Assembly: GCF_036231355.1 (NCBI RefSeq)
Contig: NZ_CP109496.1
Coordinates: 1,178,001 to 1,242,000, forward strand
Length of the DNA: 64,000 nucleotides
Direction: 5' to 3'
From: Streptomyces sp. NBC_01431
GTDB lineage: Bacteria > Actinomycetota > Actinomycetes > Streptomycetales > Streptomycetaceae
In this document: one piece after another, positions 49,490 to 56,454 of the stretch
Position numbering within the stretch: the first letter of the stretch is position 1
How the letters are laid out: each line of letters opens with the position of its first letter
Program-made: the position numbers and the translations under genes
The notes under the pieces: model-generated
The model's database searches: none
The model's input: only the letters and a program-made list of their open reading frames with translations
Told to the model about the DNA's origin: nothing

Positions 49490-50305
49490 TCAGCGGCCGG
49501 ATTCCTTCTGGTACGCCTTGACGACCTCGTCGGTCGGACCGTCCATGAGGAGCTCACCGCGCTCCAGCCAGAGCACGCGGTCGCAGGTGTCCCGGATGGA
49601 GCCGATGCTGTGGCTCACCAGGAAGACGGTTCCGGCGTGCTTGCGCAGTTCCCGGATGCGCTCCTCGGAGCGGATCTGGAACTGCCGGTCACCGGTGGCC
49701 AGCGCCTCGTCGATCATGAGGACGTCGTGGTCCTTGGCCGCGGCGATGGAGAACCGCAGCCGGGCCGCCATACCGGAGGAGTAGGTCCGCATCGGCAGGG
49801 AGATGAAGTCTCCCTTGTCGTTGATGCCGGAGAAGTCCACGATCTCCTCGTAGCGCTCCTTGACCTCCTCGCGGGACATGCCCATGGCCAGGCCGCCGAG
49901 AATGACATTGCGCTCGCCGGTCAGGTCGTTCATCAGCGCCGCGTTCACGCCGAGCAGCGAGGGCTGGCCGTCGGTGTAGACCCGGCCGCTCTCCGGCGGC
50001 AGCAGTCCGGCGATGGCCCGCAGCAGGGTCGACTTGCCCGAGCCGTTGGAGCCGATCAGGCCGATCGCCTCGCCGCGGTACGCGGTGAACGAGACGCCCT
50101 TGACCGCGTGCACCCGGCGCATGCCCCGGGAGGCGCCGCCGGTCTTGTCCCGTTTGACTATGCGGCTTAGGGCCGCGGTGGCGCTGCCCTTTCCGCCACC
50201 GCCTCCGTTGACGGTGTACACGATGTGCACGTCGTCACAGATGACGGTGGGGATGCGCGCGTCGACCACGTCGGCGCGCTCCTTGATGTCCTCAGCCACG
50301 GCCAT
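49490..50305 (-). CDS. ABC exporter ATPase, TagH/Wzt type
   Basis: A 271-aa ATP-binding subunit. Walker A is GSNGSGKST (about residue 86), the signature-like segment YSSGMAARLRFSIAAA, Walker B HDVLMIDEALATGD, and the H-loop VSHSIGSI. The YxSGM signature and absence of a long C-terminal domain are typical of teichoic acid/O-antigen exporters. It overlaps the permease gene by 14 nt and should export the product of the upstream enzymes across the membrane. Confidence 0.92.
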   Translation of the reverse strand: MAVAEDIKERADVVDARIPTVICDDVHIVYTVNGGGGGKGSATAALSRIVKRDKTGGASRGMRRVHAVKGVSFTAYRGEAIGLIGSNGSGKSTLLRAIAGLLPPESGRVYTDGQPSLLGVNAALMNDLTGERNVILGGLAMGMSREEVKERYEEIVDFSGINDKGDFISLPMRTYSSGMAARLRFSIAAAKDHDVLMIDEALATGDRQFQIRSEERIRELRKHAGTVFLVSHSIGSIRDTCDRVLWLERGELLMDGPTDEVVKAYQKESGR

Positions 50306-51173
50306 ACCGCTCCTCAGCCTTCCAGAAGTACACGAAGCCCAGTCCCCCGACGACGACCGCCCAGCCGACCGCGAGGGCCCACACGTGCGGGGGCAGCGTG
50401 TGGCTGCCGTAGCCGTCCATCAGGGCGTAGCGCGCCAGGTCCATGTAGACCGCGGCGGGGTTGCACTGAAGGATGACCTTCAGCCAGTGCGGCTTGCCCC
50501 TGAGCACGGTGCCGAGGCTGAACATCACGCCGGACGAGTACATCCACGTACGCATGATGAACGGCATGAGCTGCGCGAGGTCCGGCGTCTTGGCACCGAG
50601 GCGCGCGAAGGTCAGCGCCAGCCCGGTGTTGAAGACGAACTGGAACGCGAGCACCGGGATGATCAGGAGCCAGGTCATGCCCGGCATGAAGCCGGACGAG
50701 ACCACCACGATCATCAGGACGATCATGGAGAACAGCAGCTGCTGGAGCTGCTGGAGTGCGAAGGAGACCGGCAGCGAGGCGCGCGGGAAATGCAGGGCCC
50801 GCACCAGGCCCAGGTTGCCCGAGATCGCGCGTACGCCCGCCATCAGCGAGTTCTGCGTGAACGTGAACAGGAACACGCCGGTCACCAGGAACGGGATGTA
50901 CGCGTCCGAGGCGATGCCCCGCTTCGCGTTCATGAGAACGCCGAAGATGAAGTAGTAGACCAGCGCGTTCAGCAGGGGCGTCGCCACCTGCCAGATCTGG
51001 CCGAGCTTCGCCTCGCTGTACTGGGCGGTCAGCTTGGCCGACGAGAACGACAGGATGAAGTGGCGCCGACCCCACAGCTGCTTGATGTAGGCGGTGAGCT
51101 GGGGCCGGGCCCCGCTCACCGACAGCCCGTGTTTGGCGGCGAGGTCCGCCGGGGACAGGGTTGTGTCACTCAC
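50292..51173 (-). CDS. ABC exporter permease, TagG/Wzm type
   Basis: A 293-aa ABC2-type permease with six helices. YSEAKLGQIWQVATPLLNALVYYFIFG near residue 50 is the conserved TagG/Wzm start of the membrane domain (…LGxxWxxLxPLxxxxxYxxxF). It pairs with the adjacent ATPase for polysaccharide or polyol-phosphate export. The GTG at 51173 is used; the ribosome site is weak. Confidence 0.92.
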   Translation of the reverse strand: MSDTTLSPADLAAKHGLSVSGARPQLTAYIKQLWGRRHFILSFSSAKLTAQYSEAKLGQIWQVATPLLNALVYYFIFGVLMNAKRGIASDAYIPFLVTGVFLFTFTQNSLMAGVRAISGNLGLVRALHFPRASLPVSFALQQLQQLLFSMIVLMIVVVSSGFMPGMTWLLIIPVLAFQFVFNTGLALTFARLGAKTPDLAQLMPFIMRTWMYSSGVMFSLGTVLRGKPHWLKVILQCNPAAVYMDLARYALMDGYGSHTLPPHVWALAVGWAVVVGGLGFVYFWKAEERYGRG

Positions 51174-51239: not shown

Positions 51240-52124
51240 TCAGATGACGGGAGGACGGCCCAGCCGGGTGAGTCTGAAGACCGTACGCCACTTCATGGGG
51301 CGCCGTGGTCCGCAGGGCGTCGTCCAGCCCTCCTTGAAGCCGCCGAACCACGCCTTCAGCGCGGGGCCGGACGGCTTGCGGGCGAGGGTGAGCAGCAGCC
51401 AGACCCCGAGGTAGACGGGGACCAGCGGCGCGGGCAGGTTGCGCCGGGCCAGCCAGACCCGGTTGCGGGCCACCATCCGGTGGTAGACCGCGTGCCGGGA
51501 CGGGGCGGTCGTCGGGTGGTGCAGGACCATGTCCGCGCGGTAGTCGATCATCCAGCCGGCGTCGAGCGCCCGCCAGGCGAGGTCGGTCTCCTCGTGAGCG
51601 TAGAAGAACTCGTCCGGCAGCCCGCCGACCTCCGCGAACACCTTGGTGCGCACGGCATTGGCGCCGCCGAGGAACGTCGTCACGCGCGAGGAGCGCATCG
51701 GGTCGGCGGCGCGCAGCCTCGGGACGTGGCGGCGCTGGGTGATCCCGGTGTCGGGGTCGGCGATGCGGAAGCTGATGATGCCCAGCTCCGGGTCGGCGGC
51801 GAAGGCCTGCCGGCACAGCTCGGCGGTGTCCGGGTTCGCGAGCAGCCCGTCGTCGTCGAGGAAGAGCAGCACGTCCATCCGCGCGCCCGACGGTCCGAAC
51901 GCCTCGATGCCGACGTTGCGGCCGCCCGGAATGCCCAGGTTCTCCGGCAGCTCCACGGTGCGTACGCCCTCGGGGACGTCCGGCACGGGGGCTCCGTTGC
52001 CGACCACGACGACCTCGATCCGGTCGCCGTCCTGCTTGGCGACGGAGTCGAGCAGGGCCCGCAGCTCGGCGGGGCGGTTGCCCATGGTGATGACGACCGC
52101 GCCGACCTTCATCGGGGCGCTCAC
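51240..52124 (-). CDS. GT2-family glycosyltransferase
   Basis: A 294-aa inverting glycosyltransferase. VVITMGNRPAELRALLDSV opens the GT-A fold. The nucleotide-sugar Asp lies in VVVVGNGAP/ENLGIPGGRNVG, the DxD-like motif is FLDDDG, and the base region FFYAHEETDLAWRALDAGW carries the ED pair. It likely adds a sugar to the polymer made by neighbouring enzymes. The GTG at 52124 overlaps the upstream stop (GTGA). Confidence 0.9.
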   Translation of the reverse strand: MSAPMKVGAVVITMGNRPAELRALLDSVAKQDGDRIEVVVVGNGAPVPDVPEGVRTVELPENLGIPGGRNVGIEAFGPSGARMDVLLFLDDDGLLANPDTAELCRQAFAADPELGIISFRIADPDTGITQRRHVPRLRAADPMRSSRVTTFLGGANAVRTKVFAEVGGLPDEFFYAHEETDLAWRALDAGWMIDYRADMVLHHPTTAPSRHAVYHRMVARNRVWLARRNLPAPLVPVYLGVWLLLTLARKPSGPALKAWFGGFKEGWTTPCGPRRPMKWRTVFRLTRLGRPPVI

Positions 52125-52900
52125 TTCAGCCTGCTCGAAGCGAGCACGGACACGAGGTGCAGCAGCGTCTGAAGGAGCGCGATGCCCGCGAGCACTGCGA
52201 CGCCCAGGCGCGAGAAGTACAGGTCGCCCCGGACCTGGTCCACGACCGCGAGGACCAGGATCAGCAGGGACGCCTCGATGCCGAGGACCAGCCGGTGGAA
52301 CTTCAGCGCGGCGGCGGCCCTGCGGGCCAGCGCCATGCCGGAGGAGCGCGGCTCGGCGGCCGCGTCCTTGACCTGGGGCAGCCCGGCCTGGTGGCGGGCG
52401 ACGCCGACCAGGTCGGTCTCGGCCTTGATCAGGATGGCGCCGAGCGCGGCGAGCGTACCGAGGAAGGCCCACAGCCAGTCGATCCGGCCGCCGCCCCACA
52501 GGTCCGCGGCGCGCAGACCGAAGCCGACGAGTACCGCCGCGTCGCACAGGTAGGCGCCGACGCGGTCCAGGTACACGCCGGACAGCGAGAACTGCCTCTT
52601 CCAGCGGGCGACTTCACCGTCGACGCAGTCGAGCAGCAGATAGCCCTGTACGGCCACGACGCCGAGGACCGCGCCCCAGATGCCCGGGACGAGCAGGGCC
52701 GGGGCGGCGAGCACACCGCTGAGGGTCATCACGTAGGTCAGCTGGTTCGGCGTGACCTTGGTGGTGACCAGGAGGCGGGTGATGCGCAGCGAGATCTCGC
52801 GCATGTACAGGCGGCCGCCCCAGTGTTCTCCGCTGACCCGGTCCTTCACACCCGCCGGGTGCACGACCGGGCGGAGCTCAGCTACGGATGGTCTTGGCAT
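52121..52900 (-). CDS. CDP-alcohol phosphotransferase with altered D4
   Basis: A 259-aa membrane enzyme with about six helices. The CDP-alcohol motif reads DCVDGEVAR, then G-VYL-D. The fourth Asp (catalytic base in relatives) is replaced by Ala in LDRVGAYL. The family transfers a phosphoalcohol from a CDP-activated donor to an alcohol. Conservation of the first part with loss of D4 suggests a variant mechanism or non-catalytic partner for the DUF5941 homologue in the same operon. Both ends overlap neighbours. Confidence 0.85.
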   Translation of the reverse strand: MPRPSVAELRPVVHPAGVKDRVSGEHWGGRLYMREISLRITRLLVTTKVTPNQLTYVMTLSGVLAAPALLVPGIWGAVLGVVAVQGYLLLDCVDGEVARWKRQFSLSGVYLDRVGAYLCDAAVLVGFGLRAADLWGGGRIDWLWAFLGTLAALGAILIKAETDLVGVARHQAGLPQVKDAAAEPRSSGMALARRAAAALKFHRLVLGIEASLLILVLAVVDQVRGDLYFSRLGVAVLAGIALLQTLLHLVSVLASSRLK

Positions 52901-53939
52901 AGTCGGCGTACGCGTCCCTGATCTGGTCGGTGGACAGGTCGAGGTGCTCGAGGATGGTGTAGCGGCCGGGGCGGGTCTGCGGTGCGAACTCGACGGCCTG
53001 GACGAACTCGGCGTCCGTGAAGCCGATTTCACTCGCCAGGACCGGCAGCGCGTGCCTGCGCAGCACCTCGGCCATCAGCGCGGACTGCTCGGGCGCGCCG
53101 CGCAGGTGCATCGCGAAGGCCGCGCCGAGGCCGCACTGCTCGCCGTGGCTGGCGGCCCGGGTCGGGAAGAGCAGGTCGAAGGCGTGGCTGATCTCGTGGC
53201 AGGCGCCGGACGAGGGCCGGCTGTCGCCGCTGATCGACATGGCGATGCCGGACATGACCAGGCCCTCGGAGAGGGTGACCAGGAAGTCGTCGTCGCCGAC
53301 GGTGCCGGGGTGGCGCAGGACCGCCTCGCCGGCGCTGCGCGCCATGGCGGCGGCCAGGCCGTCGACGGGCTCCCCGGTCTCCCGGTGCGAGAGCTCCCAG
53401 TCCGCGATCGCCGACAGGTTGGAGATCGCGTCGCCGATGCCCGAGCGCACGAAGCGCGCGGGCGCGTCCCGGATGACGTCCAAGTCGATCAGGATGGCCA
53501 GCGGGGTGGGCACGCCGTAGGAGCCGCGCCCGTTGTCGTTGTCGAGCGTGGAGATCGGCGAGCAGATGCCGTCGTGCGAGAGGTTCGTCGCGACCGCGAC
53601 CATCGGAAGACCGACCCGGGCCGCCGCGTACTTCGTGACGTCGATGATCTTCCCGCCGCCGAGCGCCACGACCGCGTCGTAGCGCTTGCCGCGCATCGCG
53701 TCGGCGAGCTTGACCGCCGCGTCGATGGTGCCGCCGTCGACGGGGTACCACTCGGCGCCGGGCAGCAGCGGGCCGAACTGCTCACGCAGCTTCAGGCCGG
53801 AGCCACCGCTGATCGCGATCGCCAGGTTCCCGTTGGCCGAGATGCGCTGGTCGGCGAGGACGACCGCCAGGTCGTCCAGCGCCCCCCGCCGGATGTCGAC
53901 GACAACCGGCGAGGGGATCAGCCGCGTCAGTACTGGCAC
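52878..53939 (-). CDS. Glycerol-1-phosphate dehydrogenase-like (AraM/G1PDH) enzyme
   Basis: A 353-aa member of the dehydroquinate synthase/iron-alcohol dehydrogenase fold. VVALGGGKIIDVTKYAA binds NAD. NLSHDGICSPISTL and SRPSSGACHEISHAFD are close to the archaeal G1PDH/AraM patterns (SHDGxASP; SRPxSGxEHxxSHA). Metal ligands are Asp in GIGDAISN, His in ISHAFD and His in SHGEQCGLG. It may reduce dihydroxyacetone phosphate to sn-glycerol-1-phosphate, the archaeal enantiomer. A related polyol-phosphate substrate is the alternative. It overlaps genes on both sides (23 and 13 nt). Confidence 0.82.
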   Translation of the reverse strand: MPVLTRLIPSPVVVDIRRGALDDLAVVLADQRISANGNLAIAISGGSGLKLREQFGPLLPGAEWYPVDGGTIDAAVKLADAMRGKRYDAVVALGGGKIIDVTKYAAARVGLPMVAVATNLSHDGICSPISTLDNDNGRGSYGVPTPLAILIDLDVIRDAPARFVRSGIGDAISNLSAIADWELSHRETGEPVDGLAAAMARSAGEAVLRHPGTVGDDDFLVTLSEGLVMSGIAMSISGDSRPSSGACHEISHAFDLLFPTRAASHGEQCGLGAAFAMHLRGAPEQSALMAEVLRRHALPVLASEIGFTDAEFVQAVEFAPQTRPGRYTILEHLDLSTDQIRDAYADYAKTIRS

Positions 53940-54664
53940 GCGATCTCACGGCCCTTCGCGAGGTCGTCGTGGTTGTCGATCTCGACCCACGAGACCTCGC
54001 CGATGGGCGCGACGTCGACGGCGAAGCCGCGGTTGACGAGCTCCTGGTAGCCGTCCTCGTAGTAGAGGTCGGGGTCGCGCTCGAAGGTGGTCTTCAGGGC
54101 GTCGGCGAGCTCCTCGGCGGCCTCGGCCTCGATGAGCGTGACGCCGATGTACTCGCCGGTCGCGGTCGCCGGGTCCATCAGCTTGGTGATGCGCTGGACG
54201 CCCTTGCCCTCGGCCGTGATGACCTTCATCTCCTCGTCGGCGAGGCTCTTCACCGTGTCGAGGGCGAGGATGATCTTCTGGCCGTCGCCGCGCGCGGCGA
54301 GCAGCGTCTTCTCGACGGAGACCGGGTGGACGGTGTCGCCGTTGGCGAGGATCACACCGCGCTTGAGGACCTCACGCGCGCACCACAGGGAGTAGGCGTT
54401 GTTCCACTCCTCGGCCTTGTCGTTGTCGATCAGCGTGATCGCGACGCCGTACTTGGCCTCCAGGGCCTCCTTGCGCGCGTACACGGCCTCCTTGCGGTAG
54501 CCGACGACGACGGCGACCTCGGTGAGCCCGACCTCGGCGAAGTTCTTCAGCGCGATGTCCAGGACGGTGGTGTCACCGTCGACAGGCACGAGGGCCTTCG
54601 GGAGCGTGTCGGTGTAGGGGCGCAGACGCCGTCCGGCACCGGCTGCCAGTACGAGGCCAATCAT
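53927..54664 (-). CDS. Nucleotidyltransferase (CTP:phosphoalcohol cytidylyltransferase-like)
   Basis: A 245-aa NTP transferase: LVLAAGAGRRLRPYT and PKALVPVDG form the nucleotide site, WNNAYSLW and ILANGDTVHP the metal site, and WVEIDNHDDLAKG the C-terminal signature of LicC/inositol-1-phosphate cytidylyltransferase relatives. In this operon it likely makes the CDP-activated polyol for the phosphotransferases. The ATG overlaps the upstream stop (ATGA). Confidence 0.88.
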   Translation of the reverse strand: MIGLVLAAGAGRRLRPYTDTLPKALVPVDGDTTVLDIALKNFAEVGLTEVAVVVGYRKEAVYARKEALEAKYGVAITLIDNDKAEEWNNAYSLWCAREVLKRGVILANGDTVHPVSVEKTLLAARGDGQKIILALDTVKSLADEEMKVITAEGKGVQRITKLMDPATATGEYIGVTLIEAEAAEELADALKTTFERDPDLYYEDGYQELVNRGFAVDVAPIGEVSWVEIDNHDDLAKGREIACQY

Positions 54665-56454
54665 GCTGTTTCTCCTTCGTCATGTACGGCAGGTGCTCCG
54701 GAGGACACCCAGAAGCGGATGGACTCCACGAGCACCACGAGCGCGATGGCCGCCGCGAGGGCGGTGAGCGCCAGGGTGAAGTCTGTGCCTCGCGTGGCGA
54801 GGACGGCGGCGAGCACCGTCACCACGAGCGTGCGGCCGTCGTGGCCGCCGATCAGCCGCACCAGCCACGAGGGCGGCGCGCCGGAGCCGCCCTTGATGCG
54901 GTAGACCGTGTCGTAGTGATGGTAGGCGACCGCGGCCACGAGGCCGAAGGCCGCGGGCAGGGCCCCGTTCACGTCCGAGCGGGCCGCCAGGATCAGGACC
55001 GTGCAGTATTCGGCCACGCGGAAGAGCGGCGGTACGAGCCAGTCCAGGGCGCCCTTGAGGGGGCGACCGACGGCGATGCCCGACAGGACCGCGTAGAAGA
55101 CGGCCGCGACGATCATCTGGCGGCTGCCGACCGGCTGCGTGAGTGCGGTGGCGATGAGGGCCGTGGTGCCGACGGCCGCCACCACGGGGGCGCCCGGCAC
55201 CCGGGGTGCCTTCGCGGCGACCAGTTGCGCGAGCGGCCCGCTGTCCGCGAGGTCGGCGAGCGCCTGGGCTGCGCGGTCGGTGCGGGTGGCTCGACGGGTC
55301 AGCGAGCGAAGGACGCGTCCCGCGGTGGTGTAGCAGGCGGCGAAGGCACAGCCGATGAGGAGCGCGTAGAACACGATGCGGGGCGTGGTGACGGCGGTCA
55401 GCACGGCGATCATCGCCCAGCGCTCGCCGATCGGCAGCACGATCATGCGGCGCACCCACACCGTCCAGCCGACCGAGTCGAGTTTGTCGGAGAGGGCGGC
55501 GGTGGGGCTGGTGTTGGCCGTCGCGTCGTGGTTGGCCTCGTTGAACGAGAAGTCCACGACGTGGCGGCAGGTCTGGAGCACCATGGCGCCGAGCGCGAGC
55601 GCCCATACGTCGTCGCCGCCGCGAGCCGCGCCGAGGGCGAGCCCCGCGTAGTAGGCGTACTCCTTGGCGCGGTCGAACGTGGCGTCGAGCCAGGCGCCCA
55701 TTGTCGAGTACTGGAGCGAGTAACGGGCGAGCTGCCCATCGGTGCAGTCCAGGACGAAGGAGAGGATCAGCAGCACTCCGGCCGCGACGTAGCCGCCGCG
55801 GGTCCCGGTCGCCGCGCAGCCGGCCGCGATCAGCGCGGTGATCAGCGAGGCGGTGGTGACCTGGTTGGGGGTGAGCCCCCGCCGGGCGCACCAGCGGGCG
55901 AGGTAGCGGGAGTACGGGCTGATGAAGTGGGTGGTGAAGAAGCCGTCGCGGGACTTGACCGCGTTGCGCAGTCGTACGGCCTCGTCGTCCACGGCTGCGA
56001 CGGCCCGGCTGGCGGCGGCCGCGGCCGCCTCGTCGGCGGGGACGGTCGCGACCAGCGAGCCGAGCTCGGGGTGGTGCACCGCGACGTCCTGCGCCTCAAG
56101 GGCGGCGGCGATGTCATCGGCGAGCACCGAGGCGGTACACACGTGGGCTGCCGGAGCCGGGACGCCGGCCAGGGCGCGGTCGAGCGCCGGGCGGGCCTCG
56201 GCCTTGACCGTCAGCGCGCCGGGCACGGAGGCCGCCGGGAAGCGCGGGTCGGTCAGCGCCAGGCGCAGGGAGTGGAGGTGTCCGACGAAGCGCGGGTCGA
56301 CCAGGGCGACGCGTTCACCGGCGGGCACCTCGGCTAGCAGGGCGGCCACGTCCTCGGGCCGCTGGGCGGAGCGGACGTCGAAGCCCAAGGAGCCCAGCTC
56401 GGGTCCGAGCTGCGACCCGGGGACCGGCAGACCGGTCAGGATGGCGGTCGACAG
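54661..56454 (-). CDS. CDP-alcohol phosphotransferase with DUF5941 domain, CTG start
   Basis: A 597-aa protein leading the operon. An N-terminal soluble domain (to about 195) resembles a degenerate nucleotidyltransferase-like region. A CDP-alcohol phosphotransferase domain follows with complete motif DCTDGQLAR, G-AWL-D-ATF-D (about 255-285). The C-terminal membrane half has many helices and the DUF5941 region. The start is a CTG at 56454: AGGAG lies 9 nt upstream and the product then begins STAILTG as in homologues I recall. The next in-frame TTG (56388) would cut off 22 residues, and a stop lies three codons above the CTG. Confidence 0.85.
   Translation of the reverse strand: MSTAILTGLPVPGSQLGPELGSLGFDVRSAQRPEDVAALLAEVPAGERVALVDPRFVGHLHSLRLALTDPRFPAASVPGALTVKAEARPALDRALAGVPAPAAHVCTASVLADDIAAALEAQDVAVHHPELGSLVATVPADEAAAAAASRAVAAVDDEAVRLRNAVKSRDGFFTTHFISPYSRYLARWCARRGLTPNQVTTASLITALIAAGCAATGTRGGYVAAGVLLILSFVLDCTDGQLARYSLQYSTMGAWLDATFDRAKEYAYYAGLALGAARGGDDVWALALGAMVLQTCRHVVDFSFNEANHDATANTSPTAALSDKLDSVGWTVWVRRMIVLPIGERWAMIAVLTAVTTPRIVFYALLIGCAFAACYTTAGRVLRSLTRRATRTDRAAQALADLADSGPLAQLVAAKAPRVPGAPVVAAVGTTALIATALTQPVGSRQMIVAAVFYAVLSGIAVGRPLKGALDWLVPPLFRVAEYCTVLILAARSDVNGALPAAFGLVAAVAYHHYDTVYRIKGGSGAPPSWLVRLIGGHDGRTLVVTVLAAVLATRGTDFTLALTALAAAIALVVLVESIRFWVSSGAPAVHDEGETA

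Follow-up and report, generated by a model that had tools for sequence, protein, structure and literature searches.

Wall teichoic acid synthesis (TagD, TagB/F and the exporter TagGH) runs on cytidine diphosphate (CDP)-glycerol, and the IPCT-DIPPS route by which hyperthermophiles make glycerophosphoinositol joins an inositol-1-phosphate cytidylyltransferase (IPCT) of the LicC type to a CDP-alcohol phosphotransferase. Other points of comparison are the choline/ethanolamine phosphotransferases CPT1 and CEPT1; the AraM-PcrB pathway of Bacillus, which, as far as the excerpted source describes it, pairs a bacterial glycerol-1-phosphate dehydrogenase (G1PDH) with prenylation; and LtaS, which builds lipoteichoic acid by drawing glycerol-1-phosphate (Gro-1-P) from phosphatidylglycerol. 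Here we describe a seven-gene operon, genes A to G, of Streptomyces sp. NBC_01431, found in the window, by which we mean the whole analysed stretch of 64,000 nucleotides (NZ_CP109496.1, positions 1,178,001 to 1,242,000). Like the wall teichoic acid pathway, the operon has a TagG/TagH-like exporter and would follow CDP-glycerol logic; unlike it, the operon lacks TagD and TagF and instead has a G1PDH-type enzyme, a LicC-like nucleotidyltransferase and membrane CDP-alcohol phosphotransferases. This gene content suggests that the operon produces, by way of CDP-(sn-1)-glycerol from C and B, a lipid or short polymer of the envelope that contains glycerol phosphate, and exports it; we assign this reading a probability of about one half.

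The seven genes are co-directional on the minus strand, from 56454 to 49490, and all the Pfam matches below are above their cut-offs:
Gene A, 54661..56454, minus strand: CDP-alcohol phosphotransferase with DUF5941, 597 aa from its probable CTG start (CDP-OH PT, PF01066, 4.9e-10; DUF5941, PF19365, 8.8e-95)
Gene B, 53927..54664, minus strand: nucleotidyltransferase (NTP_transferase, PF00483, 9.4e-15; best PDB match 1jyk; NNAYSL motif)
Gene C, 52878..53939, minus strand: G1PDH-family dehydrogenase of the iron-ADH/G1PDH superfamily (Fe-ADH_2, 5.6e-28; best PDB match 4rgq, tree and invariant residues)
Gene D, 52121..52900, minus strand: second CDP-alcohol phosphotransferase, with the fourth motif Asp changed to Ala (PF01066, 3.7e-6)
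Gene E, 51240..52124, minus strand: GT2 glycosyltransferase (PF00535, 1.6e-10)
Gene F, 50292..51173, minus strand: TagG-like ABC exporter permease (ABC-2 membrane, PF01061, 7.3e-16)
Gene G, 49490..50305, minus strand: TagH-like ABC exporter ATPase (ABC_tran, PF00005, 6.4e-21)

Every gene described in the initial annotation, which was made from the sequence alone, was thus recovered. The overlaps A/B, B/C, C/D and D/E are 4, 13, 23 and 4 bases; E and F are separated by 66 bases, and F and G overlap by 14. A probably begins at the CTG at 56454, which has AAAGGAG in front of it and makes the annotated end of the run plausible; the open reading frame (ORF) lister's own start is the TTG at 56388. 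C is present in 108 of 119 genomes of the order, including 104/104 in the genus of the window, and the order A to G is identical in 6/6 further operon loci, a degree of conservation that excludes chance. B occurs in 107 of the 119 genomes. B is likewise missing from the 11 genomes that have no C; one genome (G112) has C only, and another (G060) has only B fragments, its two matches being 52 residues each. The annotation also remarked on the lack of a TagO/TagA-like primase; there is none in the operon, the window not having been searched for primases gene by gene, and elsewhere in the genome are three PF00953 proteins, a family that takes in MraY besides TagO/WecA.

Gene C is a G1PDH-family dehydrogenase that groups with the G1PDHs and apart from GldA. 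Its best PDB matches are the G1PDHs 4rgq (E 6.4e-41) and 4rfl (6e-41), followed by 3ce9 (4.4e-40), two further G1PDHs (3.5e-31 and 1.1e-22) and then other glycerol dehydrogenases (1kq3, 1.4e-17). A 60-row tree was built from 36 of the 80 loci of the neighbourhood scan described below, 16 further A1 rows, the window, four PDB stretches, two GldA rows and one AraM-like row from Shinella, with some C rows beginning at the match rather than at the gene start. In this tree, C lies in an ingroup with archaeal G1PDHs, 3ce9 and AraM-like rows, from which the two GldA rows split at 100/100; several reference rows sit on long branches. C carries the motifs xDGxxSP and SRPxSG, found as the annotated SHDGICSP and SRPSSGACHEISHA, as well as D170, H248 and H265, which, going by GldA, we take to be metal-ligand positions. 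Position 170 is Glu in 3 of 17 aligned rows (L016, L026 and L027). The closest homologue, from Streptomyces xanthochromogenes, is 96% identical; it comes from the best 120 of 4,953 protein matches, which are nearly all from streptomycetes or unnamed sources and carry little information on distant kin.

Gene B is similar to characterised cytidylyltransferases, which puts it with the LicC/IPCT type. Its best PDB match is the CTP:phosphocholine cytidylyltransferase 1jyk (E 1.7e-14), and it also matches 4jd0 (E 1.6e-9), named as an IPCT in a passage of PMC12275187. B is likely a CTP:glycerol-phosphate cytidylyltransferase, where the neighbouring genes make CTP and a glycerol phosphate its likely substrates.

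B and C form the central gene pair of the operon, found in nearly every Streptomyces genome examined. For a wider view, neighbourhoods were compared in the best 80 of 584 relatives, with taxon groups as named in their records, neighbours found mostly by tblastn and Pfam run on chosen ORFs. B adjoins C in 59 of the 62 loci of bacteria other than WOR-3/Stahlbacteria, a count enriched by design because the search profile was built mostly from B-linked C proteins. Outside Streptomyces the adjacency holds in 28/31 loci, one of the three misses being at a contig edge, and members of the module span Micromonospora to Kerfeldbacteria and a Clostridia metagenome-assembled genome. B was found beside C in 0/7 WOR-3/Stahlbacteria and 0/11 archaeal loci, and no gene annotated as part of the module flanks a match on a Nitratidesulfovibrio plasmid. 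A gene for a Golvesin/SpoIID protein stands between B and C (L017:9886-12879) within a single actinobacterial family (f13).

Three families of transferases that use CDP-alcohols are found beside B-C, PF01066 widely and PF04464 and LicD in few loci. A CDP-alcohol phosphotransferase match is present in 51 of the 62 bacterial loci, and Pfam confirms PF01066 in the window itself and at L012, L017, L062 and L065. PF04464, the CDP-glycerol glycerophosphotransferase family, immediately follows C in L092 and adjoins B-C on the opposite strand in L024, and a LicD gene lies two genes past B in a Clostridia locus (L077). GDPD genes occur near B-C in L024 and L099, and a WecG/TagA-type transferase adjoins the CDP-alcohol transferase of L017. 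Loci of two phyla also share a gene of the PF01663 type (type I phosphodiesterase/nucleotide pyrophosphatase-like) in the neighbourhood of G1PDH-family genes and a CDP-alcohol transferase; it is confirmed by Pfam at L018:2332-3951 and L062:10824-12455, and similar ORFs in L020, L022 and L065 were recognised by eye only.

The initial annotation spoke of two CDP-alcohol phosphotransferases; both are PF01066, and the two differ. In A, the motif DCTDGQLARYSLQYSTMGAWLDATFD is canonical and DxxDGxxAR-x8-GxxxDxxxD is complete. The motif ends in Asp in all 73 CDP-alcohol transferase motifs other than the D type, whereas the fourth Asp is replaced in 57/57 loci of the D type (Ala in 50, His in 7; L001, a second copy of the locus of the window, was dropped, and G053 is counted twice, as L005 and L054). 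This fourth Asp is presumably the general base of these enzymes. Structural comparison of the A and D models gives matches to AF2299 and 4mnd; the fold of D retains its match to AF2299 despite the lost Asp, and the models point to D as an AF2299/DIPPS-like relative without the usual catalytic base. Residues 145-566 of the A model align with choline phosphotransferase. A differs from CPT1/CEPT1 in being 12% identical, in carrying an additional N-terminal domain, which the model predicts with low confidence, and in being linked to B-C rather than to choline activation. The operon resembles the IPCT-DIPPS route in its type of nucleotidyltransferase, its CDP-alcohol phosphotransferases and these structural matches, and differs in its separate genes, G1PDH partner, glycosyltransferase and exporter; the last two argue against a soluble solute such as glycerophosphoinositol as the product. 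If the proposed reading is correct, DUF5941 would form the C-terminal half of a fold of the CPT1 type; a literature search for DUF5941 returned no papers. The A motif reads DATDG in place of DCTDG in L055, L057 and L058, and a distant DUF5941 gene is present in G315.

In the proposed pathway, C would reduce dihydroxyacetone phosphate to sn-glycerol-1-phosphate, which B would activate with CTP to CDP-(sn-1)-glycerol. A, with its predicted choline/ethanolamine phosphotransferase-like fold, would transfer Gro-1-P to a membrane acceptor of the diacylglycerol type or to a glycolipid, D would carry out a second transfer step, E would add a sugar, and F and G would move the product out of the cell. 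The chain put forward in the initial annotation, from Gro-1-P through CDP activation and transfer to glycosylation and export, is therefore supported in part and indirectly, by the phylogeny, the B-C pairing, the CDP-alcohol-using transferases beside B-C and the copies at the teichoic acid locus described below; its substrates, enantiomer, order of steps and product are predictions.

A number of results weigh against this pathway, and some of them favour another substrate. C scores 235.2 bits with a cut-off of 413 for the NCBIfam G1PDH equivalog PRK00843, for which reason we name it G1PDH-family and not EgsA, and its motif is SGACHE rather than SG.EH, with Cys at the Glu of 4rgq and 5fb3. The structure 3ce9, deposited as 'Glycerol dehydrogenase', nearly equals the G1PDHs in its score with C, and the ingroup forks that place the clade of C have moderate support (88/90 and 83/71). 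The top NCBIfam matches of B are sugar-1-phosphate enzymes, all under cut-off, and the NNxYS motif occurs in 16 of 27 nucleotidyltransferases and so is only partly useful as a test of B. AF2299 equals choline phosphotransferase as a structural match of A, and D may be inactive. Among the neighbourhoods, 9/62 loci have no PF01066, PF04464 or LicD by the searches made, LicD is seen in one locus, and no PF04464-like match was found in L061, the named relative of L024; the sampled genomes are also not independent. It is possible, though less likely, that C and B use another polyol phosphate (of the erythritol, arabitol or inositol type, or glycerol-2-phosphate) and form a different CDP-alcohol or a UDP- or GDP-linked donor. 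The cut-off and the SGACHE motif of C speak for this, as do the matches of B to IPCT and sugar nucleotidyltransferases and the resemblance of A and D to AF2299, DIPPS and phosphatidylinositol phosphate synthases. PF04464 and GDPD genes near B-C, on the other hand, point to glycerol phosphate, and C groups with G1PDH in the tree.

Seven Streptomyces genomes carry a copy of C or of B-C beside obgE (a placement recognised by eye), the region to which the wall teichoic acid locus is assigned by its L21/L27 anchors in a passage of PMC13274773. The obgE-side copy is a second full-length one, of B-C in G024 and G039 and of C alone in G018, G066 and G097, and those of G060 and G112 are at a contig edge. 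A PF04464-like gene was found within the fetched stretch in 6 of the 7 obgE-side loci, the other (L047) having none across 19.9 kb. PF04464 is over its cut-off in 105 of the 119 genomes of the order and TagD (TIGR01518) in none, with 2/14 controls over; the best TagD score in the genome itself is 44.5 bits against a cut-off of 165.4. This pattern fits B-C as the source of CDP-glycerol. Also to be counted against our pathway, weak TagD-like matches occur in 74/119 genomes, four of these genes beside another CDP-alcohol transferase motif, so that another CDP-alcohol source may exist. The Streptomyces loci L039-L042 (e.g., L040:735-1941) carry, next to a different CDP-alcohol phosphotransferase whose motif is canonical, a gene resembling TagD that scores under the TIGR01518 cut-off and is PF01467 in L040, suggesting that some Streptomyces may have a second route to a CDP-alcohol.

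These findings also bear on the view that the operon only feeds CDP-glycerol to wall teichoic acid polymerases encoded elsewhere, with A, D and the exporter belonging to wall teichoic acid. The PF04464 and TagD counts and the copies at the wall teichoic acid locus are as this view would have them. However, the search for PF04464 drew a blank in five genomes of the genus, and the four that were fetched (G086, the fifth, was left out) all keep A to G, which suggests that the operon probably makes a product of its own. In addition to the TagG/TagH-like pair of L043, which lies in the same genome near one of its two PF04464 genes, the operon encodes an exporter of its own. Identity to the L043 pair is 64.6% for F and 71.6% for G (G, at 175 bits against an NCBIfam TagH cut-off of 320, is called TagH-like only). 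We consider a pure supply role unlikely.

The initial annotation expected a bacterial envelope phosphodiester with archaeal stereochemistry. That stereochemistry would not be new to bacteria: in the portion of PMC8262930 available, phosphatidylglycerol and lipoteichoic acid already carry Gro-1-P stereochemistry in bacterial envelopes, from sources other than CDP-1-glycerol, and CDP-1-glycerol is called likely absent from bacteria. What would be new is the CDP-1-glycerol route. Were Gro-1-P passed from CDP-1-glycerol to a diacylglycerol, the head group would have the same stereochemistry as with LtaS (PMC8262930, in part), which makes a lipoteichoic-type product an attractive candidate; the Gro-1-P of the operon would differ from that of LtaS in being CDP-linked. 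In an excerpt of PMC3196553, Streptomyces are reported to have lipoteichoic acid and no clear LtaS orthologue. We tentatively raise, as a rather doubtful extension, that the operon is an LtaS-independent lipoteichoic acid route of Streptomyces, in which CDP-1-glycerol would feed the choline-phosphotransferase-fold enzyme and sn-Gro-1-P would go straight onto an intracellular membrane lipid; D, its base lost, would act on a phosphate acceptor, for example polyprenyl phosphate, making a TagO-type primer unneeded; and the complete glycerophosphoglycolipid would be exported whole. If the CDP-1-glycerol pathway is correct, bacteria make CDP-1-glycerol, envelope molecules with Gro-1-P may arise in Streptomyces independently of LtaS, and a G1PDH homologue present in all 104 genomes sampled from the genus gains a testable job other than archaeal-style membrane lipids.

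Such homologues have been treated, in the parts of PMC6431249 and PMC5059525 available, as a matter of archaeal-type lipids and lipid evolution. A passage of PMC6431249 lists Streptomyces as one genus in which some species have the full set of three archaeal genes and suggests that these may make archaeal-like lipids, and the homology of C to G1PDH would allow it to make Gro-1-P for ether lipids. The partner of C, however, is a nucleotidyltransferase and not a prenyltransferase, and PcrB/GGGPS was found in 0/119 genomes of the order and 0/1 for the genome itself, with 7/14 controls positive. Given C in 108 of these genomes, an archaeal ether-lipid role is very improbable and was rejected on this absence, and the genomes sampled here do not fit the published suggestion. 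Compared with AraM-PcrB of Bacillus, nucleotidyl activation would replace prenylation.

By eye, squalene/hopanoid genes lie downstream of the cluster, and a cation-diffusion gene and an isopentenyl diphosphate (IPP) isomerase gene lie upstream. Homologues of hpnC and hpnD follow the cluster (window 49490-48178) in all six compared Streptomyces operon loci. The gap to hpnC is 400 bp in the window and ∼3.5 kb in L055, L057 and L058, and in L026 and L027 no hpnC or hpnD match was found in a stretch reaching ∼5 kb past G; a hopanoid-modifying role based on these neighbours is not favoured, given the variable gap and these two loci. We found no publication proposing this pathway, in a search that left out most subscription journals. 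A 2026 synteny study (PMC13118837) mentions this region, including crtB, tagH, tagG and araM, in an available passage and classes it under both teichoic acid biosynthesis and secondary metabolism. In Streptomyces coelicolor, excerpts of the respective papers give sco6750 as IPP isomerase (PMC6767563), SCO6751 as zitB (PMC5472717) and SCO6759-71 as the hopanoid genes (PMC2374992), and from these anchors and the gene order A, B and C are probably SCO6752, SCO6753 and SCO6754, and A to G should correspond to SCO6752-6758.

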